IMG/VR virus record: IMGVR_UViG_3300020172_004459
Location: 1 to 36,359 of that record
Length of the DNA: 36,359 bases
Direction: 5' to 3' (one strand)
From: a virus
Shown here: positions 3,875 to 36,289 of the stretch, piece after piece
Position numbering within the stretch: position 1 is the first letter of the stretch
Layout of the letters: each line of letters opens with the position of its first letter
The notes under the pieces: generated by a model
Told to the model about the DNA's origin: nothing
Seen by the model: the letters and a program-made list of their open reading frames with translations, nothing else
Databases searched by the model: none
Translations under genes and position numbers: made by a program

Positions 3875-3882
3875 GATAAATA
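3875..3882 (+). promoter_or_regulatory. Late-type promoter GATAAATA, start codon at predicted +1
   Basis: GATAAATA matches the T4 late octamer at 7 of 8 bases. Five bases separate it from the ATG at 3888. Because the T4 octamer covers -13 to -6, the A of the ATG falls on the expected +1. There is no Shine-Dalgarno sequence, so the message may be leaderless. It is divergent from the minus-strand octamer at 3852. Confidence 0.6.
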
Positions 3883-3887
3883 TTTGA

Positions 3888-4853
3888 ATGAAAATCTTAG
3901 TTACAGGCGGATTAGGCCTTATTGGTCACAATGTAGTGAAAAAACTAGAACATCAAGGTCACGATGTTGTAATATCGGACACCCGTACCAATTATGGAAT
4001 TATCCCGCAAGAAGAAATAAACTACCTAATCTCAGAAAGATTAAAACATATTCGAACTGATAGAATACACAGAGTAGATATCAGCGATAGAGAAGGAGTT
4101 GACTGGTTGTTTAGACATTATCGTCCAGAAGCAGTCATCCACTTAGCTTCGTTTCCTAGACAAAAAGTTGTGAACTCTGATCCAGCAAAGGGAGCTGAAG
4201 TTATGAGCGAAGGATTGCTGAATCTTCTCGAAGCCGGAGTTAAATACCAGATAGATAGATTCATGTATGCCAGTAGCAGTATGGTCTACGGTGATTTTAA
4301 AGATCATGTCGCTGAAGATGCAGAATGCAGACCGCAAGGGCAATATGGTATTATGAAACTAGCAGGAGAGTGGCTTGTTAAAGATTATTCGCGCCGTGGG
4401 CATTTTGATCATACTATTTTCCGTCCTTCTGCTGTATACGGAGAACTCGATGTTGAAGATCGTGTTATTTCAAAGTTTTTGTTGACAGCTATGCGTGGCG
4501 GAATTCTTAAAGTCAACGGCATAAATGAAACTCTCGACTTTACCTATGTTGATGATGCTGCTAATGGATTTGTTCAGGCATTGTCTACAACTGTTACAAA
4601 AAATAAAACCTACAACATCACTAAAAGCCACAGCAAGACACTCTACGAAGCTGCTAAGTTGGCAGTAAAACTAGCAGGTCAGGGAACTATCGAAGTTAGA
4701 GATAAAGATCAAGATTTTCCCAGTCGCGGAGCCTTAGATATCACTGCTGCTCGTAGAGATTTTTCTTTCGATCCCAAGATAGATATCGAAGAAGGGTTTG
4801 AGCGGTATTATCGTTGGCTAAGTAAATCAGCATATTGGCGAGAAAATTTATGA
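3888..4853 (+). CDS. NAD-dependent sugar epimerase/dehydratase
   Basis: Extended short-chain dehydrogenase of the nucleotide-sugar epimerase type, 321 aa. The nucleotide-binding motif is GGLGLIG at residues 7-13, the catalytic Ser/Thr region is YASSSMVYG, and the YxxxK motif is YGIMK, followed by FRPSAVYG. It probably epimerises or dehydrates an NDP-sugar in the cytoplasm; UDP-glucose 4-epimerase-like and dTDP-glucose dehydratase-like enzymes share these motifs and I cannot separate them. It starts a rightward pair with the next glycosyltransferase (ATGA overlap). Confidence 0.88.
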   Translation: MKILVTGGLGLIGHNVVKKLEHQGHDVVISDTRTNYGIIPQEEINYLISERLKHIRTDRIHRVDISDREGVDWLFRHYRPEAVIHLASFPRQKVVNSDPAKGAEVMSEGLLNLLEAGVKYQIDRFMYASSSMVYGDFKDHVAEDAECRPQGQYGIMKLAGEWLVKDYSRRGHFDHTIFRPSAVYGELDVEDRVISKFLLTAMRGGILKVNGINETLDFTYVDDAANGFVQALSTTVTKNKTYNITKSHSKTLYEAAKLAVKLAGQGTIEVRDKDQDFPSRGALDITAARRDFSFDPKIDIEEGFERYYRWLSKSAYWRENL

Positions 4854-7517: not shown

Positions 7518-8235
7518 TTCTTATAAAACGAGTTAGTTCTGGCCAGGTTCCTAAATCTATATAATCTTCTACTTCTATACCTTTGCTCAAGTATAGTGGT
7601 GTATTTTTTATTTCATCGACAGTGACTCTTTGACGCAACGTACTTTTTTCCATAAATGCAATACATTGATCGAATGCTCTTTTTCTAAATGCAAAACTAC
7701 ACCAAAAAGCATTAAACCTTTCTAATTTTTCTTCTGGCTTATCTTCATAAGTTTCAATTATGGAATCTTCAGTTACAGACAAAGCTCCTTTGGTTTTAAG
7801 CATTGCAGGATTATTTTCTTTTTTATAAAAAAATGTAAATCCCGTTTCAGTCAAACTCGATTCTATGGCTTTGAATAAATCAACCCCTGGCGATAACTGC
7901 ATTAGTGTATCTGGTAGCAACACTACATTATGTTCACCAAATAGATGCTTGGCGCTTTTTATTGCTCCGGTATATTCTTGCTCGTTGGGATTTTGATAGG
8001 TAAAACTAATATTAAATCTGTCTTTATATTTAGAAAGATATTTGACAATATCCAGTTTGAATTCGTTAAAGACTATTATAAATTCTACGTCTTTTCTACC
8101 GTAATCCTTAAAAAAATCAAATGAAAAGTCAATCAAAGATTGTCCCTCACTGACGCGAAGTATTTCTTTGGAATAAGGTAATCCAAGTCTGCTGCCTTGT
8201 CCTGCAGCCGGGATAATTACTGTAAGTTTGCTCAT
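7510..8235 (-). CDS. Sugar-phosphate nucleotidyltransferase
   Basis: 241 aa, NTP_transferase fold. The signature loop is IPAAGQGSRLG at residues 8-18, followed by YSKEIL (Lys of the pyrophosphorylase motif) and LLPDTLM, equivalent to the metal-binding Asp strand. It should make an NDP-sugar from NTP and sugar-1-phosphate (GlmU/RfbA/ManC relatives); the nucleotide and sugar are not evident. It is first in the leftward operon, lacks a Shine-Dalgarno, and has a CATAAATA octamer ending 5 nt before the ATG. Confidence 0.82.
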   Translation of the reverse strand: MSKLTVIIPAAGQGSRLGLPYSKEILRVSEGQSLIDFSFDFFKDYGRKDVEFIIVFNEFKLDIVKYLSKYKDRFNISFTYQNPNEQEYTGAIKSAKHLFGEHNVVLLPDTLMQLSPGVDLFKAIESSLTETGFTFFYKKENNPAMLKTKGALSVTEDSIIETYEDKPEEKLERFNAFWCSFAFRKRAFDQCIAFMEKSTLRQRVTVDEIKNTPLYLSKGIEVEDYIDLGTWPELTRFIRNA

Positions 8236-8240
8236 AAAGT

Positions 8241-8248
8241 TATTTATG
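8241..8248 (-). promoter_or_regulatory. Late-type promoter CATAAATA, start codon at predicted +1
   Basis: CATAAATA on the minus strand matches 7 of 8 bases of the T4 late consensus. Exactly 5 nt (ACTTT) separate it from the ATG at 8235, so a T4-like start site would be the A of that ATG. Confidence 0.6.
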
Positions 8249-14747: not shown

Positions 14748-14774
14748 GGGGATCCTATGCTAAAAAATGTTGAG

Positions 14775-14782
14775 TATTTATT
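14775..14782 (-). promoter_or_regulatory. Late-type promoter AATAAATA for gmd
   Basis: The minus strand reads AATAAATA (7 of 8 to the late consensus), 27 nt before the gmd start, which has an AGGATC ribosome site. It sits inside a GAGTA-ttatt-TACTC-type inverted repeat. Confidence 0.5.
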
Positions 14783-14797
14783 ACTCAAATAACCTCA

Positions 14798-15190: not shown

Positions 15191-15199
15191 AGGATTTAG

Positions 15200-15207
15200 A
15201 TTAAATA
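15200..15207 (+). promoter_or_regulatory. Possible weak late promoter ATTAAATA
   Basis: ATTAAATA matches the late octamer at 6 of 8 bases, 21 nt before the ATG at 15229. It forms a divergent pair with the octamer at 15214 on the other strand; the two face through each other. Confidence 0.35.
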
Positions 15208-15213
15208 CTCTGA

Positions 15214-15221
15214 TATTTATC
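15214..15221 (-). promoter_or_regulatory. Late-type promoter GATAAATA
   Basis: GATAAATA on the minus strand (7 of 8 to the late consensus), 23 nt before the ATG at 15190. Confidence 0.5.
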
Positions 15222-15228
15222 GACAGAC

Positions 15229-16062
15229 ATGCTCTTCAAACTACATCGATCCAACGGCGCACTGAACAGTCCTGCTATTTTTGCAGCAGTAGAACAGGGT
15301 ATTCGTGCGGCTGGTCATAATGTCACAGAATCTCAAGCAGATATCGAAGTTATTTGGTCAGTATTATGGCAAGGACGCATGAAGCCTAATCAGTTGATCT
15401 ACGAACGATGTATAAAAAATAAAAAACCAGTAATGATCATTGAAGTAGGTAATCTAGTTCGAGGGCAGACCTGGCGTTTAAGTTTTGATCATATAAATGG
15501 TCTAGGAAAATTTGCCAATGACCGAAATTTAGACTCTGCTAGACCTAAAAAATTAGGTGTTGAATTAAAACCAGAAAAATTTCATAGGTCAGATAAGATC
15601 CTTTTGGCCTGTCAACATGAACACAGTCTACAATGGCAATCTCAACCAAGGATGGATCGTTGGGCCGAGTTTATGATAGCTAAAATAAGAGAATATACTG
15701 ATAGAAAAATCGTAGTAAGGCCTCATCCAAGATCCCCATTCATGCTGAACGTCAAGGGTATTGAAATTTCTAGACCAAAAGCTGTCAAAGGCAGTTATGA
15801 TAATTTTGATTTTTCTGATGATTTCCACTGCGTTGTGAATCATAATAGCGGCCCGGCCATACAGGCTGCGATGAACGGAACTCCAGTCATAACTGACTCT
15901 ACTAGCTTGGCCTACCCAGTCAGTGGCACATTGTCTAATATCGAATCTATAAAACTACCTGATAGAGAACAGTGGTTTTTGCGTCTTTGTCACACTGAAT
16001 GGACCGTACCTGAGATCGTTTCCGGAGTTCCGATAAGTAGATTGGTTGAATCTCTGAATTAA
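15229..16062 (+). CDS. GT-B-like capsule-type transferase (paralogue C)
   Basis: 277 aa. It shares with the proteins at 9055 and 11311 the block IREYTDRKIVVRPHPRSP, CVVNHNSGPAIQAAMNGTPVITD and LPDREQWFLRLCHTEWTVPEIVSG. RPHP and NHNSGP are the probable nucleotide-sugar loops. It stands last in the sugar cassette, just before the replication block. The upstream stretch has no ribosome site. Confidence 0.7.
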   Translation: MLFKLHRSNGALNSPAIFAAVEQGIRAAGHNVTESQADIEVIWSVLWQGRMKPNQLIYERCIKNKKPVMIIEVGNLVRGQTWRLSFDHINGLGKFANDRNLDSARPKKLGVELKPEKFHRSDKILLACQHEHSLQWQSQPRMDRWAEFMIAKIREYTDRKIVVRPHPRSPFMLNVKGIEISRPKAVKGSYDNFDFSDDFHCVVNHNSGPAIQAAMNGTPVITDSTSLAYPVSGTLSNIESIKLPDREQWFLRLCHTEWTVPEIVSGVPISRLVESLN

Positions 16063-16066
16063 ATCC

Positions 16067-16095
16067 TTGACTTTTTGTTGAGAATTCGCTAAAAT
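16067..16095 (+). promoter_or_regulatory. Strong sigma70-like promoter, start codon at predicted +1
   Basis: TTGACT, 17 nt, TAAAAT: five of six bases match in each hexamer with ideal spacing. Six bases separate the -10 hexamer from the ATG at 16102, placing +1 on the A of the ATG. No Shine-Dalgarno is present. It would drive the whole uvsW operon by host polymerase. Confidence 0.75.
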
Positions 16096-16101
16096 GATAA
16101 T

Positions 16102-17298
16102 ATGTCAAAGCCTTCACACGTAGAAGATATATTTTTAGAATTTTTTGATTTGGTTATACAGGGAAATTTTTCCTTACAGAACCAAGACTTCTCTGCGTCG
16201 TTGAGCTTTCATAAACAGATAACCCTAGGTAATCAACTGACCGCTAATCAAGCGAATTTTCTGCTGAAAATATTGAAAAAATATCAGTCAGATTCTAAAA
16301 TCCACGGACTCGATTACAACGATCAACTGTCACACCCGCTGTGGAAAACAGCTTTTAGGAAATTAGATCTCAGCAAAAAAATATGGATAGAAAATTCACC
16401 AGAGCGTGGGATAGAAATACTTTTAAAATTTCCCTTTTCGTTGAAAGACACCTTTGATAAAGAAATTTCCAGCAGAAGAGACGTTTTTTCTTTAGGAAAA
16501 TGGGATCCAGAAAAAAGACTACGAGTCTTAGAGCTACATGAGTGTAATGTTATTCAGCTCAATGAATTTGTCAACTCACATTCTTTTGAAATAGACGAAA
16601 GTTTTAGATTCTTGGTTAGTCAAGTGGAAGAAATATGGGCCGAACAAGAAGAGCTCATACCTCGTTGCGAAATAGTTCGAGGTAAAGTTGAAATTTTTAA
16701 TTACACTGATGATGCCAAGTCTTTTTTTGAAAAAGCCCGTCAAGAAGATATCAGCAAAGATCTATTTTTAGCCAAAGGCATGGGATACATTCTAAAAAAT
16801 CAAGAAGAGTCGTCGTCGAAATTAGAAAAAATCTGTAGTATCGATCAGAATTTTTTCTGGTTAAAATCTAATTACGATTTTTTTGAAATTTTTTCTAAAG
16901 TCGACGGTGTTTCGGCTGTGGTGTTAGATCGCAATACCAAAGATGTAGTGACTTGGTTGAAAAAATTTGTCGAGGATGCTGACGATTTTGGTATTTCTAG
17001 AAATGACATCAAGATCTGTTTCAGAGAGAGCAGTGATGCGCCTTCGTCTCTGAACTCTTGGATAAAAGAAAATCAGCTGGGCGGAAAAGTAGATCAAGGT
17101 AAGATACTGATATTTTCCCATAAGCCTGCCAAGTGGTTGTTTAAAAATGATATTGATGTTAAAATTATAGCAGTAAACAGTTTTACTCCGGTAAATGAAC
17201 CGTTATGTCAATCATGGATAGATTCACATCCGTGTGTGTTCTATATTGGAGATATTAAACCTACAGCTCCGAGGATGAAAAAGATTGTCAACCTGTAA
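16102..17298 (+). CDS. Large unknown protein upstream of uvsW
   Basis: 398 aa; no family recognised with confidence. It is rich in Lys, Glu and Phe, with no membrane segment or signal peptide. The N-terminus reads EDIFLEFFDLVIQGNFSL; the C-terminal third (AVVLDRNTKDVVTWLKKF, KILIFSHKPAKWLF, VKIIAVNSF) alternates strands and helices like a degenerate nucleotide-binding fold. It is the first gene of the operon, overlapping uvsW by 14 nt, so a role with the UvsW helicase or DNA replication is a fair inference. Possibly translated from a leaderless mRNA. Confidence 0.8.
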   Translation: MSKPSHVEDIFLEFFDLVIQGNFSLQNQDFSASLSFHKQITLGNQLTANQANFLLKILKKYQSDSKIHGLDYNDQLSHPLWKTAFRKLDLSKKIWIENSPERGIEILLKFPFSLKDTFDKEISSRRDVFSLGKWDPEKRLRVLELHECNVIQLNEFVNSHSFEIDESFRFLVSQVEEIWAEQEELIPRCEIVRGKVEIFNYTDDAKSFFEKARQEDISKDLFLAKGMGYILKNQEESSSKLEKICSIDQNFFWLKSNYDFFEIFSKVDGVSAVVLDRNTKDVVTWLKKFVEDADDFGISRNDIKICFRESSDAPSSLNSWIKENQLGGKVDQGKILIFSHKPAKWLFKNDIDVKIIAVNSFTPVNEPLCQSWIDSHPCVFYIGDIKPTAPRMKKIVNL

Positions 17299-18739
17299 AA
17301 TCATTATCAAAGACGAAGTCAACATCAAGTGTGATGGTTTGGCCGTTGAAGCACGGAGAAAAATTGTCAACAAACTAAAATACGATCTTCCCTATGCTCG
17401 ACACATGCCAGCCTACAAGCTAGGTCGATGGGACGGCACAAAAACATTCTTTGGAATAGGTGGAAATGGTTATCTTGCACACCTAGATGTGATCTTGCCT
17501 ATAATCGAAGAAAGCGGATATGATATCGAAATCGAGGATCTACGTCATCCTATTAAACTAGATCTACAGGCCATTGATGAAAATTATTGGGCTAATCAAG
17601 GAAAGACCTGGCCAGAAGGTCACTTAGAAGCAGGCAAACCAATAGTGCTGAGAGACTATCAATACGATGTCGTAAATAAGTTTTTAGAAAATCATCAAAG
17701 CCTACAAGAAGTGGCTACCGGTGCAGGTAAGACTATAACTACTGCTACACTCAGTCACTTGTGCGAACCATACGGGCGCACAATGGTAATCGTTCCTAAT
17801 AAATCACTGGTTGTTCAAACCGAAGAAGATTATCGTAACCTAGGACTAGACGTTGGTGTTTACTTTGGCGATCGCAAAGAATTAAATCGTACACACACTA
17901 TCTGTACATGGCAGAGCCTAAACGTGTTAGATAAAAAAAGCTATGACGATGATACGCTGTCATTAGCTGAATTCTGCGAAGGAGTCGTGGCAGTAATTAT
18001 CGACGAAGTTCATCAGGCCAAAGCAGAAGTATTGACAAAATTACTAACGCAGAATTTTAAAAACTGCGTAATTAGATGGGGATTGACGGGAACAGTACCT
18101 AAAGAACAATGGGAATTTCAAAGCCTATTAGCCAGCATCGGGCCAGTGATTAACCGAGTCACTGCCTATGATCTCCAACAGAAAGATGTTCTGGCGAATC
18201 TAGAAATCAATATTTTACAGACCAATGACGTTCAGGTATTTAGAAGCTATCAAGACGAACACACATATCTAGTCACAGATCAGACTAGACTGGCGTGGAT
18301 GGCTGAAAAAATCAAAGAAATTTCACTTAGTGGAAATACACTAGTGTTAGTTGGAAGAATAGAAACCGGAAAATTTTTAACTGATAATCTTGTCGATTCT
18401 GTTTTTATCAGCGGTGCAGTAAAATTAGACGACCGAAAGGAAGAGTATGATGAAATTAAAACAAGTGATGGCAAGATTATTGTGGCGACTTATGGTGTGG
18501 CCGCTGTGGGTATTAATCTCCCAAGGATTTTTAATCTGGTTCTTGTTGAACCCGGAAAGAGCTTTGTCCGCGTTATACAAAGCATTGGGCGAGGCATTAG
18601 AAAGGCAGAGGATAAAGACTTCGTACAAATCTGGGATATCACCTCAGCCTGCAAGTATGCTAAAAGGCATCTCACCGAACGTAAAAAGTTCTATAAAGAA
18701 GCCAAATACCCCTTTACATTGACCAAGGTATCAGTATGA
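17285..18739 (+). CDS. uvsW: UvsW DNA/RNA helicase
   Basis: SF2 helicase of the T4 UvsW type, which unwinds R-loops and branched recombination intermediates and helps switch replication to the recombination mode. 484 aa. An N-terminal DNA-binding domain contains GRWDGTKTFF; Q-motif-like LRDYQYDVV; Walker A ATGAGKT at 144-150; DEVH at 240-243; LTGT; the C-terminal RecA domain ends in QSIGRGIRK. I place the start at TTG 17285, with GAGGA 9 nt upstream, because no earlier in-frame ATG exists before the conserved N-terminus. Confidence 0.94.
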   Translation: MSTCKIIIKDEVNIKCDGLAVEARRKIVNKLKYDLPYARHMPAYKLGRWDGTKTFFGIGGNGYLAHLDVILPIIEESGYDIEIEDLRHPIKLDLQAIDENYWANQGKTWPEGHLEAGKPIVLRDYQYDVVNKFLENHQSLQEVATGAGKTITTATLSHLCEPYGRTMVIVPNKSLVVQTEEDYRNLGLDVGVYFGDRKELNRTHTICTWQSLNVLDKKSYDDDTLSLAEFCEGVVAVIIDEVHQAKAEVLTKLLTQNFKNCVIRWGLTGTVPKEQWEFQSLLASIGPVINRVTAYDLQQKDVLANLEINILQTNDVQVFRSYQDEHTYLVTDQTRLAWMAEKIKEISLSGNTLVLVGRIETGKFLTDNLVDSVFISGAVKLDDRKEEYDEIKTSDGKIIVATYGVAAVGINLPRIFNLVLVEPGKSFVRVIQSIGRGIRKAEDKDFVQIWDITSACKYAKRHLTERKKFYKEAKYPFTLTKVSV

Positions 18740-19443
18740 TTTTTAATTTTTTAAACAAAGAAAAGATCAAGTTAGATGCATATACCATAGTCGGCGATCT
18801 TATCGATGTAATACCTCCTACTCTTAGTAAAAATAATTTGCCAGAATGGTACAGCAGATTGCCCAAGGGCGGTGAAATACCTAATGTCAGACACTGTTCA
18901 GGATTTAAAGACTTACACAATGAAGGAATATTGATAAGAGCATGGTCGGACATGGAAATTGAAATTAGTCCAGACGAGTCCGTAGCATTTGATGTAGCCT
19001 GTAAGGATGAACTAAAAGATCCCATCGAAAGACATGATATTAAAAATCAAGCCACTGGGGCTTGGCCCGGATATACTAATCTCAAATTGGTTTCACCTTG
19101 GTGGTTCAAATGTAACAAGCCTGTAAAGTGGGCTATGTTACCGCCAGTGTGGCATACCAAAGATCCGCTAGATTGGATGGTGGTTCCTGGTATGTTAGAA
19201 TTTAAATATCAACATGCCACCAATGTCAATCTGCTGTTTAAATTAAAATCGGAGCCATTTATGGTACGTATCAAAGCAGGACAGCCCTTGGTTCACATGG
19301 TTCCTATGTTCGACGAGCCATGGGAATTAGATGTAAAAGCCATGGATATCAGCGATTGGAAACGACATTTCGCTCGCTGGAATCATAGTTTCGATCTGGT
19401 CTATCAAAAAACCAGAGCACTTGTACAAAAGAGATCACAATGA
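18736..19443 (+). CDS. Unknown protein after uvsW
   Basis: 235 aa, ATGA overlap with uvsW. No confident family; the middle (ATGAWPGYTNLKLVSPWWFKC, MLPPVWH, WMVVPGMLEF) with many Trp and Pro suggests a beta-rich fold and recalls a DUF6065-like pattern, a weak impression. Conserved placement in the replication operon suggests a phage-core role, but none can be assigned. Confidence 0.75.
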   Translation: MIFNFLNKEKIKLDAYTIVGDLIDVIPPTLSKNNLPEWYSRLPKGGEIPNVRHCSGFKDLHNEGILIRAWSDMEIEISPDESVAFDVACKDELKDPIERHDIKNQATGAWPGYTNLKLVSPWWFKCNKPVKWAMLPPVWHTKDPLDWMVVPGMLEFKYQHATNVNLLFKLKSEPFMVRIKAGQPLVHMVPMFDEPWELDVKAMDISDWKRHFARWNHSFDLVYQKTRALVQKRSQ

Positions 19444-19946
19444 GAATTTTAACATTAAACAACCGAGCATTTGACTTAAACGAATTACCAGACGAGGTAG
19501 ACGAAGATACTAGATTTTCAGTCTTAGATAACAGTAATCCGCATGATCCAGATTTCTTTTTTATGCCTTTAATTTTTCTAGAATCGTTTAACAGTCCAGC
19601 GATTTTATTGAAAGTCGGAGGACACGAAGTGCAGATGCCTCTAGATTGGTGCATGGTAGTAGGAGACAAAGAGTGCGGATTAGATCCAGAAGTCCTGCCG
19701 TTGACCAGTATCAACGAACGAGGGTTTGATGCATTTGTATTCAATCCTATCGGAGGATTTCGAGCAGAGTACATGTCTATAGAAATAGTCAACATATATC
19801 AAGACGTTCGCTGGTATTTTCCTAAAATGAAAAATGGACAATTACTCACTGTACCATTGCACGAAGGAGAAAATCCTCCTTGCGTGTTTTTCGTCAAAGA
19901 AGTCAGTAGACAGAGCGAAATATTACAGTTACATAAACTAATATAA
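19440..19946 (+). CDS. Unknown acidic protein
   Basis: 168 aa, overlapping its upstream neighbour by ATGA. Not recognised. It is acidic in the first third and beta-rich, with PLTSINERGFDAFVFNPIGGF and RWYFPKM as its most distinctive stretches. No catalytic motif, zinc site or membrane segment seen. Confidence 0.72.
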   Translation: MRILTLNNRAFDLNELPDEVDEDTRFSVLDNSNPHDPDFFFMPLIFLESFNSPAILLKVGGHEVQMPLDWCMVVGDKECGLDPEVLPLTSINERGFDAFVFNPIGGFRAEYMSIEIVNIYQDVRWYFPKMKNGQLLTVPLHEGENPPCVFFVKEVSRQSEILQLHKLI

Positions 19947-19955
19947 AGGAATTCT

Positions 19956-20312
19956 ATGAAAGCAGGAAAAGTATGGGGTCAAACAGAACTCCTTGAAGCC
20001 AACGGTGTATTAGAGTTTCATCGTATTGAAGCCAAGAAAGGCGGCACATGTTCAAAACACAAACACAAATTTAAGTGGAATGGATTCTTTGTAGAAAAAG
20101 GAGAAATGATCATTCGTGTTTGGAAAAATAACTACGACTTAGTTGACGAAACACTACTAAGAGCAGGTGAATACACAAAAGTAGCACCTGGAGAATTTCA
20201 TCAGTTTGAAGCAGTAACTGACTGTGTTGCCTTCGAACTTTATTGGGCAGAGTTTGACCACGACGACATTGAGCGTGAAACTGTAGGATTTGCAAAAAAT
20301 GGGAAATCTTAA
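19956..20312 (+). CDS. Cupin-domain protein
   Basis: 118 aa single cupin. Motif 1 is visible as GGTCSKHKHKFKWNGFFVEKGE (two His and a Glu as metal ligands) and motif 2 as GEYTKVAPGEFHQFEA (His). The metal-binding set looks complete, so a metal-dependent sugar or small-molecule enzyme or binder is likely. AAAGGA precedes the ATG. It resembles the cupin half of the fusion at 8294 only in fold. Confidence 0.8.
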   Translation: MKAGKVWGQTELLEANGVLEFHRIEAKKGGTCSKHKHKFKWNGFFVEKGEMIIRVWKNNYDLVDETLLRAGEYTKVAPGEFHQFEAVTDCVAFELYWAEFDHDDIERETVGFAKNGKS

Positions 20313-20565
20313 ACCTGGAGCATCTTATCGGTATCGATTAGATCGAGGCACAGTATATGCACAAGACAAAGACACTCTCGACGAAGAGGCTATTGGTTGG
20401 GAGTATGACTCGCGAACAGAAGACGGTAGACCTTTGATCGACCACATTCGTGATGATAAACTTTGGGGAGACATTCGACGAGCTGCTAAAACGAACCCTC
20501 TCTTGCAAGAAGCGTTAGATCGTGCTAAAATAATATACGAACTGAGCAAAAAAGATGAGCAATGA
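20299..20565 (+). CDS. Conserved-looking small phage protein
   Basis: 88 aa from ATG 20299; a TTG at 20290 is also in frame. The pattern is LKPGASYRYRLDRGTVYAQD, IGWEYD, then an Arg/Lys-rich helix ending LDRAKIIYELSKKDE. It has the look of a protein common in T4-type marine phages, from memory, with no known function. It overlaps both neighbours by 11-14 nt. Confidence 0.72.
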   Translation: MGNLKPGASYRYRLDRGTVYAQDKDTLDEEAIGWEYDSRTEDGRPLIDHIRDDKLWGDIRRAAKTNPLLQEALDRAKIIYELSKKDEQ

Positions 20566-21019
20566 ATTTAAACTAAAAGACATTCTTGCAGCCATTGATC
20601 TTGACGGCAAGGAAGTCTGGGATGAACTCACCGACGAGCAGAAAAAAAGTGTGGTGTTTTTTACCTTGAATAGATATATTTCAAATGTGCAAGGAAGCCG
20701 AGAATTAAAAGAACACTATCTCCTAGTAGGAAACGAAAGATTTAATAAAAATCTTTTCTCAGTCATGAGCAAACATCCGAAACTTACATGGCAACTAGCA
20801 TGTTCTTGTAGCCACGAAAGTCGAAAGATTCAGTATCATGAATGGTTAGGAGTGAAAAAAGAAAAAAATAAAAAGGTTTCTTTTCTCGCAGAACTTTTTC
20901 CTAACATGAAAATCAGCGATGTTGAAACGCTAGCAGAGATAACCACTGATAAAGAAATCAAACAATATTGTGAATCATTAGGTTGGGATAAAAAACAGAT
21001 ACATGCAATCAAGCTATAA
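20555..21019 (+). CDS. Unknown phage protein
   Basis: 154 aa, mostly helical, basic. Distinctive blocks: FKLKDILAAIDLDGKEVWDELTDEQKKSVVFFTLNRYIS, KHPKLTWQLACSC and FLAELFPNMK. I cannot assign it; by position beside the zinc-finger protein and UvsW it may be a replication accessory factor. It does not resemble T4 gp62. Confidence 0.72.
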   Translation: MSNEFKLKDILAAIDLDGKEVWDELTDEQKKSVVFFTLNRYISNVQGSRELKEHYLLVGNERFNKNLFSVMSKHPKLTWQLACSCSHESRKIQYHEWLGVKKEKNKKVSFLAELFPNMKISDVETLAEITTDKEIKQYCESLGWDKKQIHAIKL

Positions 21020-21686
21020 ATGCGAATATTGCCAGAAAGAGTTTGTCAAAGAAAAAACTTTGGCTGTGCATGTCTGCGAACAAAAACGTAGACACTTGAG
21101 CAAAACAGAAAAACATGTTCAGGCTGGCCTGTTGACATATCAGAGATTTTATGATATAACACAAAAAGGCAAGAATAAAAAAACATTCGATGATTTTGCT
21201 GAAAGTCCGTACTATACTGCCTTTGTAAAATTTGGTAGTTTTTTAGTCAACACTTCACCGGTATATCCAGAAAGGTTTATTGACTTTGTTATAAAAAGCG
21301 GAGTGAAGTTAGATCACTGGTGCCGAGATGAGTTGTATTATACCTATGTTACTGATTTGATCAAATCGGAGCCTGCTGACGGAGCGATCCAGAGATCTAT
21401 TAAAACTATGATGGACTGGGGTGACAGCAATACGGCATCATGGGAACATTATTTTCAATATGTAAATCTAAATCGAGCCACACATGATATTAGAGAAGGA
21501 TTAGTTAGTCCTTGGTTAGTGTTAAATACCAAGTCAGGCAAAGATATGTTAAAACGTATGAATGATGAACAGTTAGAAATCATTTCCCCGATTATCGATC
21601 CGCAACATTGGATGCGTAGATTCAAATCATTGCCTGCTGATGTAGAATTAGTCAAAGATATCATCAAGGAGGCTAAGATACTGTGA
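21003..21686 (+). CDS. Zinc-finger protein, probable DNA-associated
   Basis: 227 aa. The N-terminus is a C2H2/C3H-type finger: YKCEYCQKEF, 9 residues, then HVCEQKRRH (Cys at 7 and 10, His and Cys near 23-25, further His). The remainder is helical with TFDDFAESPYYTAFVKFG and VSPWLVLN. A single finger at the N-terminus of a helical phage protein suggests nucleic-acid binding, but the target is unknown. The start ATG 21003 lies inside the upstream gene. Confidence 0.78.
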   Translation: MQSSYKCEYCQKEFVKEKTLAVHVCEQKRRHLSKTEKHVQAGLLTYQRFYDITQKGKNKKTFDDFAESPYYTAFVKFGSFLVNTSPVYPERFIDFVIKSGVKLDHWCRDELYYTYVTDLIKSEPADGAIQRSIKTMMDWGDSNTASWEHYFQYVNLNRATHDIREGLVSPWLVLNTKSGKDMLKRMNDEQLEIISPIIDPQHWMRRFKSLPADVELVKDIIKEAKIL

Positions 21687-21913
21687 TGACCCGAAAACCT
21701 AAAGAAGAACCAGTTGTAGAAGAGTTAGCAGAAAATGAAGAATTTATTTCAAGAGATGATATTGACATCGAAGTAATGAGTACCTATGATGATCAGCCAG
21801 CAGTCTATGTTAAATTCACAGGATTTGACGATGAGGAAGATGCAGAAGAGTATGCTAATTTTTTAGCAGAAACGCTTCCTTTATTATTATTTGAAAGCAC
21901 GAGATTACAGTAA
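21686..21913 (+). CDS. Small acidic protein
   Basis: 75 aa. The ATG at 21686 overlaps the upstream stop as TGATG; GTG 21683 is the alternative. Strongly acidic (EEPVVEELAENEEF, DDEEDAEEYANFL). Unknown function; it immediately precedes the mini-DnaE gene (TAATG overlap), so the two are co-translated. Confidence 0.75.
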   Translation: MTRKPKEEPVVEELAENEEFISRDDIDIEVMSTYDDQPAVYVKFTGFDDEEDAEEYANFLAETLPLLLFESTRLQ

Positions 21914-22491
21914 TGCCTGACATTGATATAGATTTTGTTGACAGAGAACAAGCACTGAGCCTATTCAATGCGACGGTCGCCAGCAGGATCGATAATGATA
22001 GATTAATCAAACATAATACTGGAATATATCTACATAAGGTTCCTGTGGATCCAATCTCGGGACTTTGTTCTATAGACTACGAGTCGGCCGAAGAACAAGG
22101 TTACTTTAAAATAGATTTTCTAAACGTAGGTATGTATAAAGGAGTTCGCGACGAAGAGCATCTTATTCAATTGATGAATACAGAACCTTTATGGGATCTT
22201 CTAGAACAAGACGACTTTAGTAATCTGCTTTTTCATGTAAACGGACACGGTTCGATACTAAGACAAATGAAACCTAAAAGCATAGAACAATTGGCAGCGA
22301 TTATCGCAATGATACGCCCGGCCAAAAGACATCTAATAGGAAAATCGTGGGACGATGTAATAATAGAAGTTTGGACTAAGCCTACGAACAAAGAATACTA
22401 TTTTAAGAAAAGTCATGCCACAGCCTATGCAGTAGCCATAGTTGTGCAGATGAACCTAATCTGTGAAAGCATTAGTTATGGGTATCAATAA
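21913..22491 (+). CDS. Miniature DnaE-like (DNA polymerase III alpha) protein
   Basis: 192 aa. Its three conserved blocks match bacterial DnaE in order. PDIDIDF at residues 2-8 equals the DnaE PDxDxDF motif holding two catalytic Asp. YFKIDFLNV around 64-72 equals VKFDFLGL, with the third Asp (68). VNGHGSILRQMKPKSIEQLAAIIAMIRP equals the fingers block, and KKSHATAYA around 165-173 equals NKSHAAAYA. About 60 residues replace the roughly 150 between the catalytic motifs of DnaE, and there is no PHP, tau-binding or OB domain. A phage with a T4 layout is expected to have its own family-B polymerase, so the role is unclear: accessory, decoy or terminal transferase. Confidence 0.75.
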   Translation: MPDIDIDFVDREQALSLFNATVASRIDNDRLIKHNTGIYLHKVPVDPISGLCSIDYESAEEQGYFKIDFLNVGMYKGVRDEEHLIQLMNTEPLWDLLEQDDFSNLLFHVNGHGSILRQMKPKSIEQLAAIIAMIRPAKRHLIGKSWDDVIIEVWTKPTNKEYYFKKSHATAYAVAIVVQMNLICESISYGYQ

Positions 22492-22985
22492 TGGCTAAAA
22501 TAAAGAACCCATTGCCGATGACCGTAGAGTGGAAAGGATCTAATGGTAGAGAATTTTATCTTGACAATCAGATCAAAAAAAATAAATGGTCTATCGGTGC
22601 AGAAGTTGGTGTAAGATTCGGGAGAACTTTATTTTATCTCTTAGACAACAATCCTAGACTACAAATGTATGCTATAGATATAGATATCTCTCAATTTTAT
22701 TCTTCTCAGATAAAGGAAAAATACGGAGATCGTATTATCGCATTAGAAGGAAATAGTTCTCTAGTAGCTGAACATATTCTTACAAAATTAGATTTTGTTT
22801 TTATAGACGGAGCACACAGTTATAAGGCTGTGATGAAAGACTTAAAAGCCTATGCTCCAAAAGTCAAACAAAAGTGCGGATTGCTAGGGCATGATATCGA
22901 TTATCCATCAATACAGAAAGCATTGAAAGATTCTTCAATAGATTATGAAGTTGGGCCGGATAACGTATGGCAGCAAAAAATCTAG
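22491..22985 (+). CDS. Class I SAM-dependent methyltransferase
   Basis: 164 aa. SAM motif I reads IGAEVGVRFGRTLFYLL, followed by MYAIDIDI (acidic end of strand 2), FIDGAHSYKAVMKDLKAY (motif IV with Asp and His, as in Methyltransf_24 and TylF-type O-methyltransferases) and GLLGHDIDYPSI. Likely an O-methyltransferase on a sugar or small molecule. It begins TAATG after the mini-DnaE and ends in a terminator shared with a convergent gene. Confidence 0.82.
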   Translation: MAKIKNPLPMTVEWKGSNGREFYLDNQIKKNKWSIGAEVGVRFGRTLFYLLDNNPRLQMYAIDIDISQFYSSQIKEKYGDRIIALEGNSSLVAEHILTKLDFVFIDGAHSYKAVMKDLKAYAPKVKQKCGLLGHDIDYPSIQKALKDSSIDYEVGPDNVWQQKI

Positions 22986-22994
22986 CTGCTTTTT
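22970..22994 (+). terminator. Rho-independent terminator
   Basis: A GCAGC/GCTGC stem with a 10-nt A-rich loop is followed by five T residues (22990-22994). It overlaps the methyltransferase stop and closes the uvsW operon. The stem is short. Confidence 0.55.
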
Positions 22995-23353
22995 CTCACT
23001 AACGTAATTGATTTACGTTTAATACGTTTTACAATAATATCGTTTAGGCTAGTACAGGGACCTAAAACTACCTTTACATCTTTAGTGCTAAAATTTCTAA
23101 TAGCGTATCTAAAGTCTATTATATCTTTGTTTAAGAAGATATTGATAGGAATCTGTCTGTTAGATTCCCACCACCAAATTTCGCCTAGTTCTAAAAACTT
23201 TTTCTTTTCATCGTCAGAGCGTATGCTGGCGTAATCATACATACTAGTCACCTGAGCATCTTGGTTGATAACGATGCCCACATACTCTTGGGCTACATGT
23301 GTTAAAACCGATATAAAAGGAAAATTTTCCTGTAAGTTTTCTGTGATTCTCAT
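22982..23353 (-). CDS. Unknown phage protein
   Basis: 123 aa from ATG 23353; an in-frame TTG at 23386 is less likely because it would run into the divergent gene. The order is RITENLQENFPFISVLTH, VGIVINQDAQVTSMYDY, LGEIWWWESNRQIPINIFL, KVVLGPCTSLNDI, ending basic. It looks like a conserved T4-type marine phage protein, from memory; no function known. It is the only leftward gene in the replication block. Confidence 0.72.
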   Translation of the reverse strand: MRITENLQENFPFISVLTHVAQEYVGIVINQDAQVTSMYDYASIRSDDEKKKFLELGEIWWWESNRQIPINIFLNKDIIDFRYAIRNFSTKDVKVVLGPCTSLNDIIVKRIKRKSITLVRKSS

Positions 23354-23354
23354 A

Positions 23355-23362
23355 GATAAATA
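23355..23362 (+). promoter_or_regulatory. Late-type promoter GATAAATA
   Basis: GATAAATA (7 of 8 to the late consensus) lies 18 nt before the ATG at 23381, which has an AAAGG ribosome site. It fits late expression of a structural-type gene placed among early replication genes. Confidence 0.6.
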
Positions 23363-23380
23363 TTGCAAAGGTAAGCTAAC

Positions 23381-24211
23381 ATGCAACTAAATTCTGTTTA
23401 TTTATATCCAAACAAAGTCGATGTATTTACTAATTCTTTGGCTACCTGGCAAAAAGAGAGGTATCGCAGAGTGTATAATCGAAACTTAAAAATCTATCGT
23501 GGGTGTGATAACCGTGTTGATCTTCAGGTAAGAAATTCAGATGAAAAATCGCAGGATATATCAACTAGACCTTATATAGTGTTTAATCTTATCAATAAAG
23601 AAACTCAAGAACTTGTTCTGCAAAAAGACTGTGAAATCGCCAGTGCAAGTGGCGGTAAAGCCTATGTTATTATTACTGAGATAGAAATGACGGCTATTGA
23701 AACAGGGTATTATCATTTTTCTCTGCATTCAGAAACTAGAACAATGGTCGGCAATTATCACACTGTATCAGCCAGAACCCCATTATATGTTGATTCGCAG
23801 TACGGCACATTTGGCATTGTTGAAGTTGGGCAACATCTAATGGGAGAACCCTTAGATAGTCTTAGAATTGATGAATTCAAAGAAGTTATAGTCAGTGCAT
23901 CGGCCACTGTAGTAACTGACAAGCATTATTTCAGCAGTATAATAGATGCTAAACCTAATTTAACTGTACCGGCTTCTGTACATACGTTTCAGTTTAATAT
24001 GAGTAGCTATCATGGCGAAATTGAAGTTCAAGCCAGTCAAGACGAGGGAGCTGACCCTCAAGTTTGGGCAACTGTATCTACTACAACTGCCGATAACGAT
24101 TCGATACTTTATGGAAACGTTATTGGCAAATATAGTTGGTTTAGAATTAAACATACGCCCGATTTAACTCAAAATAACCCAGGAAGCCTTGACGAAATAT
24201 TGTACAGATAG
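23381..24211 (+). CDS. Probable virion structural protein
   Basis: 276 aa. The N-terminus (VYLYPNKVDVFTN, RVYNRNLKIYRGCDNRVDLQVRNSDEK) and YVDSQYGTFGIVEVG resemble proteins annotated as virion structural in T4-type cyanophages. The beta-rich composition with an Ig-like C-terminal half (FQFNMSSYHGEIEVQASQDEG) supports a tail or baseplate role. The late promoter in front agrees. The assignment rests on memory of family patterns, not a search. Confidence 0.6.
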   Translation: MQLNSVYLYPNKVDVFTNSLATWQKERYRRVYNRNLKIYRGCDNRVDLQVRNSDEKSQDISTRPYIVFNLINKETQELVLQKDCEIASASGGKAYVIITEIEMTAIETGYYHFSLHSETRTMVGNYHTVSARTPLYVDSQYGTFGIVEVGQHLMGEPLDSLRIDEFKEVIVSASATVVTDKHYFSSIIDAKPNLTVPASVHTFQFNMSSYHGEIEVQASQDEGADPQVWATVSTTTADNDSILYGNVIGKYSWFRIKHTPDLTQNNPGSLDEILYR

Positions 24212-24217
24212 TATAAT
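24189..24217 (+). promoter_or_regulatory. Strong sigma70-like promoter, start codon at predicted +1
   Basis: TTGACG, 17 nt, TATAAT: the -10 hexamer is perfect and five of six -35 bases match. It lies at the end of the structural gene. Six nt separate the -10 from the primase ATG at 24224, the same geometry as at 16067-16102. No clear ribosome site. Confidence 0.78.
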
Positions 24218-24223
24218 AGGTTT

Positions 24224-25252
24224 ATGACCCTGGTCGTAGACAAATTTCGTTTATTATTACCTCCTAGAACAAAATCCAGCCCCAGCGGTTGGACATCGTT
24301 TAACGCTCCCTGCTGTCAGCATCGAGGACATAAACCAGATACTAGAAAGCGGGCAGGCATCCGCTTTGACGGTAATGGTATAGTTTATAATTGTTTTAAT
24401 TGTAAATTTTCAACAGGATGGCAACCTGGATCACCGTTTGGTGAAAAGATGAAAACCCTAGCTCGATGGATGAGCGCAGGCGAAGATCTGATTAAAGAAC
24501 TAGTATTTGAAGCTCTTAAAACCGAGGGCGAAGAATATCATCCTGAACAACAACAACCTAAAATAGAATTTACAGATAAAGAACTGCCCGAAGGAGCTAT
24601 GTCTTTGTTAGATTGGGTCAACAGTGATTATTTCAAAGATATTAGTCAAGAACTAGAACCGGTGATTTCCTATATCGTTAGCCGAGGTCATGACCCGTTC
24701 GATGGTAACTTTTTTTGGAGTCCGTCTCCCGGTTACGAAAGTCGAGTAATTATTCCTTTTCGTTGGCAAGGACGTATAGTCGGTAATACTGCAAGAAAAA
24801 TTACTGTAGGTAAACCAAAATATCTTTCCGATCATCATAGTCATTTTGTTTTTAACTTTGATCAACAGTCCGAAGATCAGAGATACACATTTGTTTGCGA
24901 AGGCCCGTTCGATGCTCTTAGTATTAGCGGAGTAGCCCTTCTCACTAACGATATAGCTGAGCAACAGGCTAGGATAATTACTAGTCTAAGCAATGAAGTT
25001 ATAGTAATCCCAGATCAAGATCGTGCAGGTCTCGCACTGTTTGATAGAGCCAGCGAATTAAATTGGGCTGTGGCGATGCCTACATGGGATTCCGATGTTA
25101 AAGATGTTGCTGAAGCTGTACAGAGATATGGTAAACTATTTGTTGTAGTCGATGCCATTAAAACCGCACAGCGAGGCACTATTAAAATCAATATGGCCAA
25201 GAAGCAACAAGAACAAAAAATTGAGAGAGCAGAATATGAAAAAAATAATTGA
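24224..25252 (+). CDS. 61: DNA primase, T4 gp61 type
   Basis: 342 aa. It synthesises RNA primers with the gp41 helicase. An N-terminal zinc-ribbon: Cys30/Cys31, His33/His36, Cys57 and Cys60 (CCQHRGH, then NCFNC). The Toprim core shows VCEGPFDALS with the catalytic Glu and VIVIPDQDRAG with the metal-binding Asp pair. A Lys/Gln-rich C-terminus overlaps a 37-aa gene. Its own strong promoter suggests early expression. Confidence 0.92.
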   Translation: MTLVVDKFRLLLPPRTKSSPSGWTSFNAPCCQHRGHKPDTRKRAGIRFDGNGIVYNCFNCKFSTGWQPGSPFGEKMKTLARWMSAGEDLIKELVFEALKTEGEEYHPEQQQPKIEFTDKELPEGAMSLLDWVNSDYFKDISQELEPVISYIVSRGHDPFDGNFFWSPSPGYESRVIIPFRWQGRIVGNTARKITVGKPKYLSDHHSHFVFNFDQQSEDQRYTFVCEGPFDALSISGVALLTNDIAEQQARIITSLSNEVIVIPDQDRAGLALFDRASELNWAVAMPTWDSDVKDVAEAVQRYGKLFVVVDAIKTAQRGTIKINMAKKQQEQKIERAEYEKNN

Positions 25253-25349
25253 TATCTTACTTTGGCCATGGCGAAAGTACCAACAAAATAAGGCATGGAA
25301 AAAACGTCTAGCAGAATTAAAAAAGCGTGATCCATTTATCTACAAATGA
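25236..25349 (+). CDS. 37-aa basic protein between primase and carbamoyltransferase
   Basis: Very short gene from ATG 25236 with GAGAG-type sequence upstream; it overlaps the primase by 17 nt and the next gene by ATGA. The product has an amphipathic N-terminus (IIDILLWPWRKY) then a basic helix ending KKRDPFIYK. The ending looks conserved in T4-type marine phages, from memory. Perhaps a peripheral membrane peptide; function unknown. Confidence 0.72.
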   Translation: MKKIIDILLWPWRKYQQNKAWKKRLAELKKRDPFIYK

Positions 25350-26326
25350 TCACCTGGGGAATAAACGCTCTCAATCACGATGCCAGCATATCAGTGTTTG
25401 CAGGTGACGAGTTTAAATTACATCAACGTGCTAGTGAATTTTCTGGAAAACGGGGAGACGATCAGCTCAATTCAGATCTAGTTCGAGCTGCTATAAATGC
25501 TAGTAATGGTCAAGGACCTAGTGAGATCGTTTGGTATGAAAAACCACTACTAAAGAAATTTAGACAGATTAGAGCAGGTCAATGGAATTGGGCGTTTGAT
25601 CGTAACGAACTACCGAAAAGATATCTGTCTAAATTTGCTCTACGATATCCTAAGATTATATATGGTGATCATCATAGGAGCCATGCAGCCGCAGGATTTT
25701 TTACCAGCCCTTTTGAAACAGCCACGGTAGTAGTATTAGATGCTATCGGAGAATGGGAAAGTGCTACAATATGGCGAGGTCAAGGCACTAAATTAGAAAA
25801 GGTATGGAGTAGGTCTTATCCTACCAGCCTTGGTATTTTTTACAGCGCCTTTACTGATCTCATAGGATTGAAACCGACTGCTGAAGAACATATATTACAG
25901 GCTCTTAGTGAAAAGGGCGATAGAGAAAGGTTCTATCATAGAATTAAAAAATATTGGCGTTCAGATTGGACTCTTCGCACTAATCTACATAAAGGTGTTC
26001 GAGATTGGCCTTATGACATTCGCCAAGAGGATCATGCAGATATTGCTGCGGCTGTTCAGCGTGTGTTTGAAGAACAAGCGTTAGAAGTATTTTCTTGGGC
26101 AGATCGATTAGCACCTAACGAAAATATTGTGTATATGGGAGGCTGTGCGATGAACAGTCTGTTCAATCAACAATACTTAGAAGATAGGTATCGAGGCATA
26201 TGGAGTTTACCTATTCCTGGAGATGCCAGCAGTGCAATTGGCTGTGTGCTTTATCATAAAAAACTGAGACTATCATACAAAGGTGATCTTGCAAAACACA
26301 TCAAGATCAAGTATAATAAGCAATGA
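25346..26326 (+). CDS. Carbamoyltransferase, N-terminal domain only
   Basis: 326 aa, related to the NodU/CmcH/TobZ O-carbamoyltransferases. The ASKHA/Kae1-like domain is recognisable: ITWGINALNHDASISVF, YGDHHRSHAAAGFFTSPF (metal-binding His), VVVLDAIGEWES, MGGCAMNSLFNQ and PGDASSAIGCVLY. Family members run to about 550 aa with a C-terminal YrdC-like domain that makes carbamoyl-adenylate; here the chain ends just after the Kae1-like domain. It may carbamoylate a sugar using a partner protein. Confidence 0.88.
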   Translation: MITWGINALNHDASISVFAGDEFKLHQRASEFSGKRGDDQLNSDLVRAAINASNGQGPSEIVWYEKPLLKKFRQIRAGQWNWAFDRNELPKRYLSKFALRYPKIIYGDHHRSHAAAGFFTSPFETATVVVLDAIGEWESATIWRGQGTKLEKVWSRSYPTSLGIFYSAFTDLIGLKPTAEEHILQALSEKGDRERFYHRIKKYWRSDWTLRTNLHKGVRDWPYDIRQEDHADIAAAVQRVFEEQALEVFSWADRLAPNENIVYMGGCAMNSLFNQQYLEDRYRGIWSLPIPGDASSAIGCVLYHKKLRLSYKGDLAKHIKIKYNKQ

Positions 26327-28593: not shown

Positions 28594-28596
28594 TGG

Positions 28597-30548: not shown

Positions 30549-30562
30549 AAATTTCTCCTTGA

Positions 30563-30580
30563 ATAAACTGAGTAGTTTAT
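30563..30580 (-). repeat. Inverted repeat at the Bax-inhibitor transcript start
   Basis: A perfect 7-bp inverted repeat (ATAAACT/AGTTTAT) with a 4-nt loop begins next to the -10 hexamer, covering the predicted start site and leader. It could be an operator or a 5' hairpin protecting the mRNA. Confidence 0.5.
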
Positions 30581-30609
30581 ATTATACTATAATTGTATTT
30601 AACTGTCAA
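30581..30609 (-). promoter_or_regulatory. Perfect consensus sigma70 promoter for the Bax-inhibitor gene
   Basis: Minus strand TTGACA, 17 nt, TATAAT, identical to the E. coli sigma70 consensus in both hexamers and in spacing. It has a leader of about 25 nt with AAGGAG. The -35 lies 2 nt from the end of the SGNH gene. Confidence 0.85.
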
Positions 30610-30611
30610 CC

Positions 30612-31487: not shown

Positions 31488-31530
31488 AATATATTGTATG
31501 TATCAATTCAGCCATTTTATGCGCTTTTTC

Positions 31531-31560
31531 TTGACTCCTGTTAAATACATATATTATAAT
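31531..31560 (+). promoter_or_regulatory. Strong sigma70-like promoter, start codon near predicted +1
   Basis: TTGACT, 18 nt, TATAAT (perfect -10). Seven nt separate it from the ATG at 31568, so transcription should start at or next to the ATG; no Shine-Dalgarno is present. Confidence 0.72.
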
Positions 31561-31567
31561 ACTATCT

Positions 31568-34490: not shown

Positions 34491-35354
34491 TTAGGCAAAA
34501 TACCTAGCGTAGACACGATCAGCAAAATTCTCGTGATGTGTGACACTGGGATGCATGTCGTTTTCTGCGGGGGGAATTGAAGGATCGTGTATGACAAAAC
34601 ATGAATCGTGATCCACCTGAAGATCGTACCACGTTCGGGGATCAGGTATCACATAGGGCTCTCGCAGTGTGGGATCAAGCTGACTTCTAGCCTGTTCAAG
34701 TTGATCTAGAATGCTTTCAGGTTCCACACTTAGATGTATGACTCTAGCGCCAGTGGCACGTAAAAACCCATCTGTCATAGATTGTAGAACTAGACTGTTG
34801 TAGTAGCGATTGTAGACACCCATAGGATCTAGATAGGTATACTTAGTGGCCTGCTCTATATAGCGTTGAATATGGTCATCAGTGGGTTTAGAGGCAGTCT
34901 TAGAATGCTCCAGCCCAAACAGCTTGTTAAAGCCCAATATCACAGTTCGCCAATTTAGAGACGGTTCAACAATACTGGCAAATGGCACTGCGGTTCTAGC
35001 GGGCCATTGTAGACTGAGTCTAGATAGATAGGTCCACATCACAATGACTACATCGTCGGGAGCAATGTCTTTGGCTGCGGCTGCACATTGGCGAGCAATC
35101 TGCTGGAAACAGGCACCACGACGGGCATGATTTATCACGGGCACGTTGAGTTGACGACCTAGTTGTGCTGGCCAAGCAAATTTGCTGGGTTGATAAAGAT
35201 GTATGTCGCTCCAATGAATGCCCAATTCCTCAATACGTTGGCTAGCGCGATCACCGGTGAGTGGATCTCCCTTTTCGTCAAGAACGGGTTTAACCACATC
35301 GGGCAATGCAAAACCCTGGGAAATAGAACAGCCAAATACGTGCAGTGTTGTCAT
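34491..35354 (-). CDS. SGNH-hydrolase-like protein (copy 2)
   Basis: 287 aa. It begins LHVFGCSISQGF (GxSxS nucleophile region). NHARRGACFQQIARQCAAAA and VVIVMWTYLSRLSLQW fit the middle of the fold, and the end has DMHPSVTHHENFADRVY (catalytic Asp and His). Related in plan to the protein at 30612. Perhaps an esterase acting on polysaccharide acyl groups; in which compartment is unknown. An AGTAAATA octamer ends 5 nt before the ATG, without a ribosome site. Confidence 0.72.
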   Translation of the reverse strand: MTTLHVFGCSISQGFALPDVVKPVLDEKGDPLTGDRASQRIEELGIHWSDIHLYQPSKFAWPAQLGRQLNVPVINHARRGACFQQIARQCAAAAKDIAPDDVVIVMWTYLSRLSLQWPARTAVPFASIVEPSLNWRTVILGFNKLFGLEHSKTASKPTDDHIQRYIEQATKYTYLDPMGVYNRYYNSLVLQSMTDGFLRATGARVIHLSVEPESILDQLEQARSQLDPTLREPYVIPDPRTWYDLQVDHDSCFVIHDPSIPPAENDMHPSVTHHENFADRVYARYFA

Positions 35355-35359
35355 GTGAA

Positions 35360-35367
35360 TATTTACT
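35360..35367 (-). promoter_or_regulatory. Late-type promoter AGTAAATA, start codon at predicted +1
   Basis: AGTAAATA matches the late octamer at 6 of 8 bases, and 5 nt (TTCAC) separate it from the ATG at 35354, the same geometry as at 3875 and 8241. Confidence 0.45.
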
Positions 35368-36233: not shown

Positions 36234-36260
36234 TTCTGCTCCTGTTTGTTTAGTGTATGT

Positions 36261-36289
36261 ATTATAGTCTCAAACCGGAAACCCGTCAA
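36261..36289 (-). promoter_or_regulatory. Strong sigma70-like promoter
   Basis: Minus strand TTGACG, 17 nt, TATAAT (perfect -10, five of six -35). It gives a leader of about 21 nt with an AGGAG ribosome site for the gene at 36233. It overlaps the 3' end of the next upstream gene. Confidence 0.8.

Follow-up and report, generated by a model that had tools for sequence, protein, structure and literature searches.

The window analysed here is the whole of a linear virus record in IMG/VR (IMGVR_UViG_3300020172_004459; 36,359 bases). It is a fragment and, judged from its gene content, part of a T4-like jumbo phage: it encodes a UvsX-like recombinase, a single-strand binding protein, a helicase (the gene at 17285, which we take to be of the UvsW type), a DNA primase and a DnaB-like (gp41-type) helicase. 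Here we analyse promoters that lie so close to the start codon that the mRNA would have no leader, above all those of two plus-strand genes. The first is the DNA primase gene (24224..25252), recognised by a family match and by its relatives. The second, gene 16102 (16102..17298), encodes a protein of 398 amino acids for which no family was matched and stands immediately 5' of the helicase gene.

Promoters in the window

Both genes are preceded on the plus strand by a sigma70-type promoter with 6 nucleotides (nt) between the -10 box and the ATG. The primase promoter is TTGACG-17-TATAAT (24189..24223; -35 at 24189-24194, -10 at 24212-24217) and that of gene 16102 is TTGACT-17-TAAAAT (16067..16101; -35 at 16067-16072, -10 at 16090-16095). 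A third plus-strand promoter, TTGACT-18-TATAAT (31531..31567; -35 at 31531-31536, -10 at 31555-31560), ends 7 nt before the ATG at 31568. The hexamers, spacers and ATG distances of all three agree with the original prediction, which had been made from the window alone, and the sites combine -35 and -10 hexamers with a spacer of 16-18 nt as sigma70 promoters do. At 16102 and 24224 we furthermore find the arrangement of TA-led genes, that is, a -10 box of the form TANNNT about 12 base pairs (bp) before the start codon; 6 nt are too few for a Shine-Dalgarno leader to fit between +1 and the start codon. Each gene has an in-frame stop upstream, at 16090, 24209 and 31532, and at 26317 for a further gene described below, and the interval from stop to start is free of ATG, GTG and TTG codons. 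Thus, an upstream extension of these genes from such a codon is impossible.

The window also contains sigma70 promoters with ordinary leaders, as had likewise been described. On the minus strand, TTGACA-17-TATAAT (30549..30609; -10 ending at 30581) lies 32 nt before the ATG of gene 29859-30548 with AAGGAG in between, and TTGACG-17-TATAAT (36234..36289; -10 ending at 36261) lies 27 nt before the ATG of gene 36045-36233 with AGGAG in between.

In total number, the window's sigma70-like sites do not exceed those of shuffled sequences (62 compared to 55.2, standard deviation 7.5; 46 compared to 43.3, standard deviation 6.0). Single sites thus prove little, and the question becomes how far the sites are from the ATG. 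We therefore paired sigma70 sites (at least 10 of 12 matching positions) with the first ATG of an open reading frame of at least 40 codons and compared the distances to 40 controls with permuted hexamers. In the window, three sites have this ATG exactly 6 nt on, whereas the controls average 0.03 and never have more than one. One of the three (minus strand, 7803) was discounted, as it precedes an internal in-frame ATG of gene 7510-8235.

Conservation of the promoters among relatives

We analysed 79 related primase loci, the best 79 of 177 matches, of which 76 were usable (L017, L033 and L061 were truncated or their ATG was not found). The -10 box lies 6 nt before the primase ATG in 75 of the 76 and 7 nt before it in one (L059). 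When only distinct loci are counted (less than 90% identity over 120 nt), the distance is 6 nt in 30 of 31 and the spacer is 17 nt in all 31. Across 30 aligned distinct loci, TTGAC and the T, A, A and T of TAnAnT are invariant; spacer positions are conserved at 43-97% and discriminator positions at 37-83%. The geometry is also kept in distant relatives with unrelated upstream sequence (e.g. L058, L063, L066 and L071).

The -35 box of the primase promoter sits in the 3' end of the upstream gene (23381-24211), where the codons can be compared. This comparison covers 30 distinct loci including the window, 25 of them with the upstream stop at -15; L017, L033, L059, L061, L063, L064, L065, L067, L068, L077 and L079 were omitted by hand. 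The Asp codon in the overlap is GAC in 25 of 25 distinct loci, a tally of loci that share ancestry and not of independent events, compared to 203 GAT and 82 GAC elsewhere in the same genes. The residue before this Asp is V, L, F or I, yet its codon is NTT every time. The constant GAC and NTT despite a changing residue point to selection on the DNA, as a constraint on the protein does not explain them.

In the cultured-phage collection, no near DNA match to window positions 14000-34000 was found. Primase relatives occur in 61 cultured-phage records, with 28-35% identity among the 20 matches listed (Atu_ph07, Phosso, PA5oct, SCTP-2 and others). In PA5oct (MK797984.1, ~145884-145892; L163), which is outside the clade, the primase is an exception: the annotated start is a GTG immediately following TATAAT, and another GTG in the same frame, 6 nt from TATAAT, may be used instead.

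Gene 16102 shows the same geometry in fewer relatives. Using tblastn, we found homologues directly before the helicase gene in four of 11 large records (G002, G003, G004 and G006; 37-50% identity). In the window and all four homologues alike, exactly 6 nt separate the -10 box from the ATG, and the spacers, 16-17 nt long, have diverged in sequence. In a fifth contig, G001, a strict 6-nt site precedes the helicase gene by 1.2 kb, at the position where a homologue would be expected. A degenerate-pattern search found no relatives of gene 16102, and neither did tblastn against cultured phages.

The promoter at 31568 behaves differently. Among 80 of 585 matches, most relatives have an ATAAATA late motif and a leader, and a few have a sigma70 -10 box at 8-11 nt. 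The counterpart in G004 has a sigma70 -10 box at 25 nt, and the 7-nt distance is absent from the counterparts in five large contigs, so that the case in the window is isolated. The original prediction had placed 31568 among the genes that start replication operons. Its product (31568-32002; 144 amino acids) matches a malonyl-CoA decarboxylase C-terminal domain (E 1.7e-9) and is no evident replication protein. The 585 matches to this product are stretches in viral contigs.

We found one more close site that the prediction did not include: TTGCAA-17-TATAAT (26289..26322, plus strand), 5 nt before ATG 26323, the start of a 2OG-Fe(II) oxygenase-like gene that precedes the gene for the DnaB-like helicase. 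Counterparts have 7 nt in G004 and 6 nt in G003, and in G006 a site lies 5 nt before the helicase ATG. The G006 promoter, which appears leaderless, is immediately before the helicase start; the window, G003 and G004 have the oxygenase-like gene in between. Homologues point to ATG 26934 (ATGATA), instead of 26904, as the possible start of the DnaB-like helicase.

Upstream of the primase, window positions 21913-22491 encode a 192-amino-acid protein that matches the phage 'DNA polymerase' family phrog_11778 and, below the cut-off, a DNA polymerase III alpha finger domain. It contains PDIDIDF, presumably a DnaE-like motif. In Phosso, a DnaE-like gene is annotated upstream of the primase. The window protein is possibly a stand-alone piece of a C-family polymerase.

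Sigma70-type and late promoters across the clade

When the distance test is extended to related contigs, sigma70 sites at 6 nt number 3 in the window, 7 in G002, 8 in G003, 10 in G004, 12 in G006 and 11 in G008, in total 51. The permuted-hexamer controls have means of 0.03-1.23 per contig, about 3.7 summed over the six, and maxima of 1-4. A separate class of leadered sigma70 promoters lies at 18-35 nt from the ATG. Outside the clade, the counts at 6 nt are not above the control maxima (PA5oct 2, SCTP-2 3, Atu_ph07 4, RaK2 3, S-PM2 1, T4 1; 400 kb each of SCTP-2 and Atu_ph07 was scanned). Counting the strict pattern against backward controls gives the same result and brings in G001 and G007 as further members. 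G005 has no strict sigma70 pattern site, though its late class is present (14 compared to 2 in the backward control); its primase locus (L070) reads TTGACA-17-TAAAAT-6-ATG.

PA5oct was considered as a cultured member of the clade and rejected. It has five sigma70-type pattern sites (control 0), and only one of them falls on an annotated start, that of an exonuclease at 7 nt; three have the annotated start 19-46 nt further on and one has no annotated gene. In a helicase tree, the trait could have arisen once, but support for this is weak (71/56; 70% of 200 bootstrap trees). The leaderless candidates form 25 homologous groups, 24 of which span at least two contigs and one of which is an in-gene false positive, plus 42 singletons.

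Promoters of the late type show a similar arrangement. The late motif ATAAATA has an ATG at 4-7 nt in 2 of 8 cases in the window, 9 of 32 in G002, 10 of 31 in G003, 22 of 69 in G004, 12 of 49 in G006 and 11 of 42 in G008, compared to average fractions of 0.02-0.03 for permuted motifs. The five large contigs thus have 9-22 such sites (24-32%), where the permuted maxima are 5-7. Summed over the six contigs, 66 motifs lie at 4-7 nt, three at 8-13 nt and 83 at 14-30 nt, with a sharp peak at 4-5 nt apart from the leadered class. About half of the late sites would therefore be leaderless, not most of them. Elsewhere, the fraction at 4-7 nt is 0/65 in T4, 0/66 in RaK2, 1/59 in S-PM2, 2/102 in Atu_ph07, 5/145 in PA5oct (all at 5 nt) and 8/335 in SCTP-2 (seven at 5 nt); for T4, RaK2, S-PM2, SCTP-2 and Atu_ph07, the counts show no excess over the controls. 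The larger relatives combine TATAAATA-like motifs near starts with a gp55-type sigma factor, as is typical of T4-type late promoters: the gp55-related family phrog_12791, which T4 gp55 matches, was found in 15 of the 16 records searched, the 36-kb window being the only one without it.

In the window, the close late sites are an ATAAATA 5 nt before ATG 3888 of an epimerase gene (3876..3890, plus strand) and another 5 nt before the ATG of the nucleotidyltransferase-like gene 7510-8235 (8233..8247, minus strand). A late-like TAAATA lies 5 nt before the ATG of gene 34491-35354 (35352..35366, minus strand). The region 3009-14747 contains genes of sugar-nucleotide and surface-polysaccharide type (epimerases, a nucleotidyltransferase, a heptose kinase-like gene) amid replication genes.

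Leaderless mRNAs require AUG in Escherichia coli. In the clade, start codons at the leaderless distance are almost exclusively ATG, with 46 ATG, 1 GTG and 2 TTG at 6 nt from sigma70 boxes and 54 ATG, 0 GTG and 1 TTG at 4-5 nt from late motifs. Twenty representatives of the leaderless candidates were scanned against families, and six had none. Among the sigma70 set are an SbcD-like nuclease and an exonuclease encoded after bS21 in G004 and G006; tail tube, head-tail adaptor and further virion proteins belong to the late set. Over their first 45 nt, the leaderless genes have less structure than over the 45 nt that begin at codon 51, a comparison made within leaderless genes and thus not specific to them.

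Interpretation and relation to known systems

At the level of sequence, the pattern is real, conserved at two of the three sites and found across the clade. We consider it highly probable that the sigma70 promoters place the transcription start at the A of the ATG or within 1-2 bases of it, that the primase and gene 16102 have leaderless mRNAs, and that leaderless starts are in wide use in the clade of jumbo T4-like phages to which the window belongs, at sigma70 promoters and at late promoters of the gp55 type alike, beside genes with Shine-Dalgarno leaders. The transcription start, the use of the host polymerase and the recognition of the 5'-terminal AUG by ribosomes we infer from the arrangement of the sites. 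A -10 box six nt before the ATG would set +1 on the A, as in lambda PRM-cI; RNA polymerase would begin on the A of the AUG, and ribosomes that recognise a 5'-terminal AUG would read the start codon without a leader. The original prediction had put +1 on the A of the ATG at all three promoters. Comparison supports this for 16102, for 24224 and for the clade; at 31568 the position is not conserved. The proposal that sigma70 and late promoters share one leaderless logic gains comparative support, as both show a sharp peak near the ATG and a separate leadered class.

Several observations weigh against this interpretation. The distance is not conserved at 31568 and varies between 5 and 7 nt at 26323, and for late sites the window alone (2 of 8) is within the permuted maximum of 2. 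The primase start and site were picked as the best scoring within a small range, which slightly biases the result towards the pattern, and the counts across contigs include homologues and are thus not independent. S-PM2 has three strict sigma70 pattern sites, with none in its control and no excess at 6 nt; together with the one in five of PA5oct, this indicates that such sites can arise without a clade-wide excess. The non-start codon ATA is also frequent after sigma70 boxes (16 at 6 nt and 14 at 0 nt), so that base composition near promoters is uneven. Furthermore, start sites can shift by a base or two, and very short leaders are possible. Lastly, the primase ATG is only 12 nt past the upstream gene, so that readthrough transcripts could supply primase too.

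This last point leads to the alternative that the promoters are real and translation comes mainly from longer readthrough transcripts, coupled to the upstream gene, with leaderless transcripts being minor. The start of gene 16102, 39 nt after the preceding gene, would fit as well. We regard this as unlikely, since it leaves unexplained the fixed 6-nt distance over deep divergence, the near absence of GTG and TTG and the separate class at 18-35 nt. It is very improbable that AT-rich DNA has thrown up TATAAT beside ATG by chance: although sigma70-like sites in the window are no more numerous than in shuffles, permuted motifs and reversed or backward patterns yield few sites at that distance, and sites common to homologues contradict chance for 24224 and 16102, though not for 31568 alone. 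The least probable alternative is that translation really begins further downstream, on transcripts with leaders of the normal kind, which the original prediction had named as grounds for its own rejection; gene starts in unannotated contigs are predictions, but 76 of the 79 primase relatives align from residue 1 and the next in-frame ATG, GTG or TTG of the primase is 75 codons in, while alignments of the 16102 homologues begin at residue 1 in G003, G004 and G006 and at residue 7 in G002.

A further, doubtful idea is that the leaderless genes form a translational regulon, in which phage bS21 and IF1-like proteins would alter the host ribosome and favour 5'-terminal AUGs at some stage of infection. 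Among the 16 records, several of which are fragments, bS21 was found in nine, an IF1-like gene in six and an IF3-like gene in three. Within the clade, bS21 occurs in G004-G008 and the IF1-like gene in G001, G004, G005, G007 and G008. The IF3-like gene is confined to Atu_ph07, Phosso and RaK2, three phages not seen to have the leaderless excess. Counting against a regulon, bS21 is also present in Atu_ph07, Phosso, PA5oct and SCTP-2 and an IF1-like gene in Phosso, and neither gene was found in G002 and G003. As an explanation, bS21 is weakened by its presence in Atu_ph07 and Phosso, both without the excess. The distribution of the three genes is thus suggestive, not decisive.

Some of these genes neighbour leaderless candidates. 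The bS21 genes of G004 (33352-33510) and G006 (15466-15624) are each followed immediately by the candidate Rv2179c-like exonuclease gene. The IF1-like gene of G004 (66617-66811) lies just downstream of a putatively leaderless sigma70 gene, and that of G008 (241636-241827) just upstream of a putatively leaderless late gene.

Leaderless mRNAs are usually regarded as exceptions outside actinobacteria, Deinococcus-Thermus and archaea. Several comparable systems are described in the literature. The middle and late mRNAs of phage phiYS40 are mostly leaderless (PMC3594737), so that, as proposed here, many mRNAs of one phage and not a single one are concerned. The phiYS40 host is Thermus, whose phylum is rich in leaderless genes (PMC3160421), whereas here a T4-like jumbo clade combines sigma70-type and gp55-type late promoters with leadered genes alongside. 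Furthermore, in the phiYS40 programme most middle and late transcripts are leaderless, with host IF2 up and IF3 down, compared to about half of the late sites here, as judged by sequence. The lambda cI mRNA is naturally leaderless (PMC8138138), and its promoter PRM has the same geometry (TAGATT-6-ATG); it concerns one gene, whereas we find about 7-12 sigma70 and 9-22 late sites per large contig. That a -10 box some 12 bp before the start codon predicts leaderless genes is well established in bacteria (PMC3160421), and experiments in Deinococcus support this for a -10 box adjacent to the reading frame (PMC12340547). Those TA-led genes are on bacterial chromosomes, whereas the sites described here are in phages and come with strong -35 boxes. 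The late promoters of T4, which gp55 reads, share the ATAAATA motif and the sigma family, and differ in that no T4 motif has an ATG at 4-7 nt, compared to about a quarter to a third in the five large contigs.

A paper on the jumbo phage AR9 states, citing an E. coli ribosome study, that phage transcripts are often leaderless, and gives leaders of 26-491 nt for AR9 itself (PMC5312081). The words 'leaderless' and 'promoter' are absent from the main text of a paper on large phages encoding bS21 (PMC9723584), as is 'leaderless' from a 2026 jumbo phage review (PMC13282480). Searches of open-licence PMC papers turned up no description of T4-like jumbo phages in which sigma70 and late promoters are leaderless. 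Leaderless phage mRNAs are thus already known from phiYS40 and lambda cI; new here are the scale and the use of two kinds of promoters in T4-like jumbo phages, as read from their sequences.

Such starts may be of benefit through compactness, as a promoter can then lie within the gene before it, or by providing a translational switch. Gene calling is affected as well, because the promoter can set the start codon, and leaderless starts offer a possible reason for the bS21 and IF1-like proteins in some such phages. Our comparison suggests that a group of giant phages uses an unusual translation start on a large scale. A clade that keeps leaderless and Shine-Dalgarno genes under two kinds of promoters would be a natural experiment on the purpose that leaderless initiation serves, be it compactness, a way around competition with host mRNAs, protection from defences against normal initiation, or timing.

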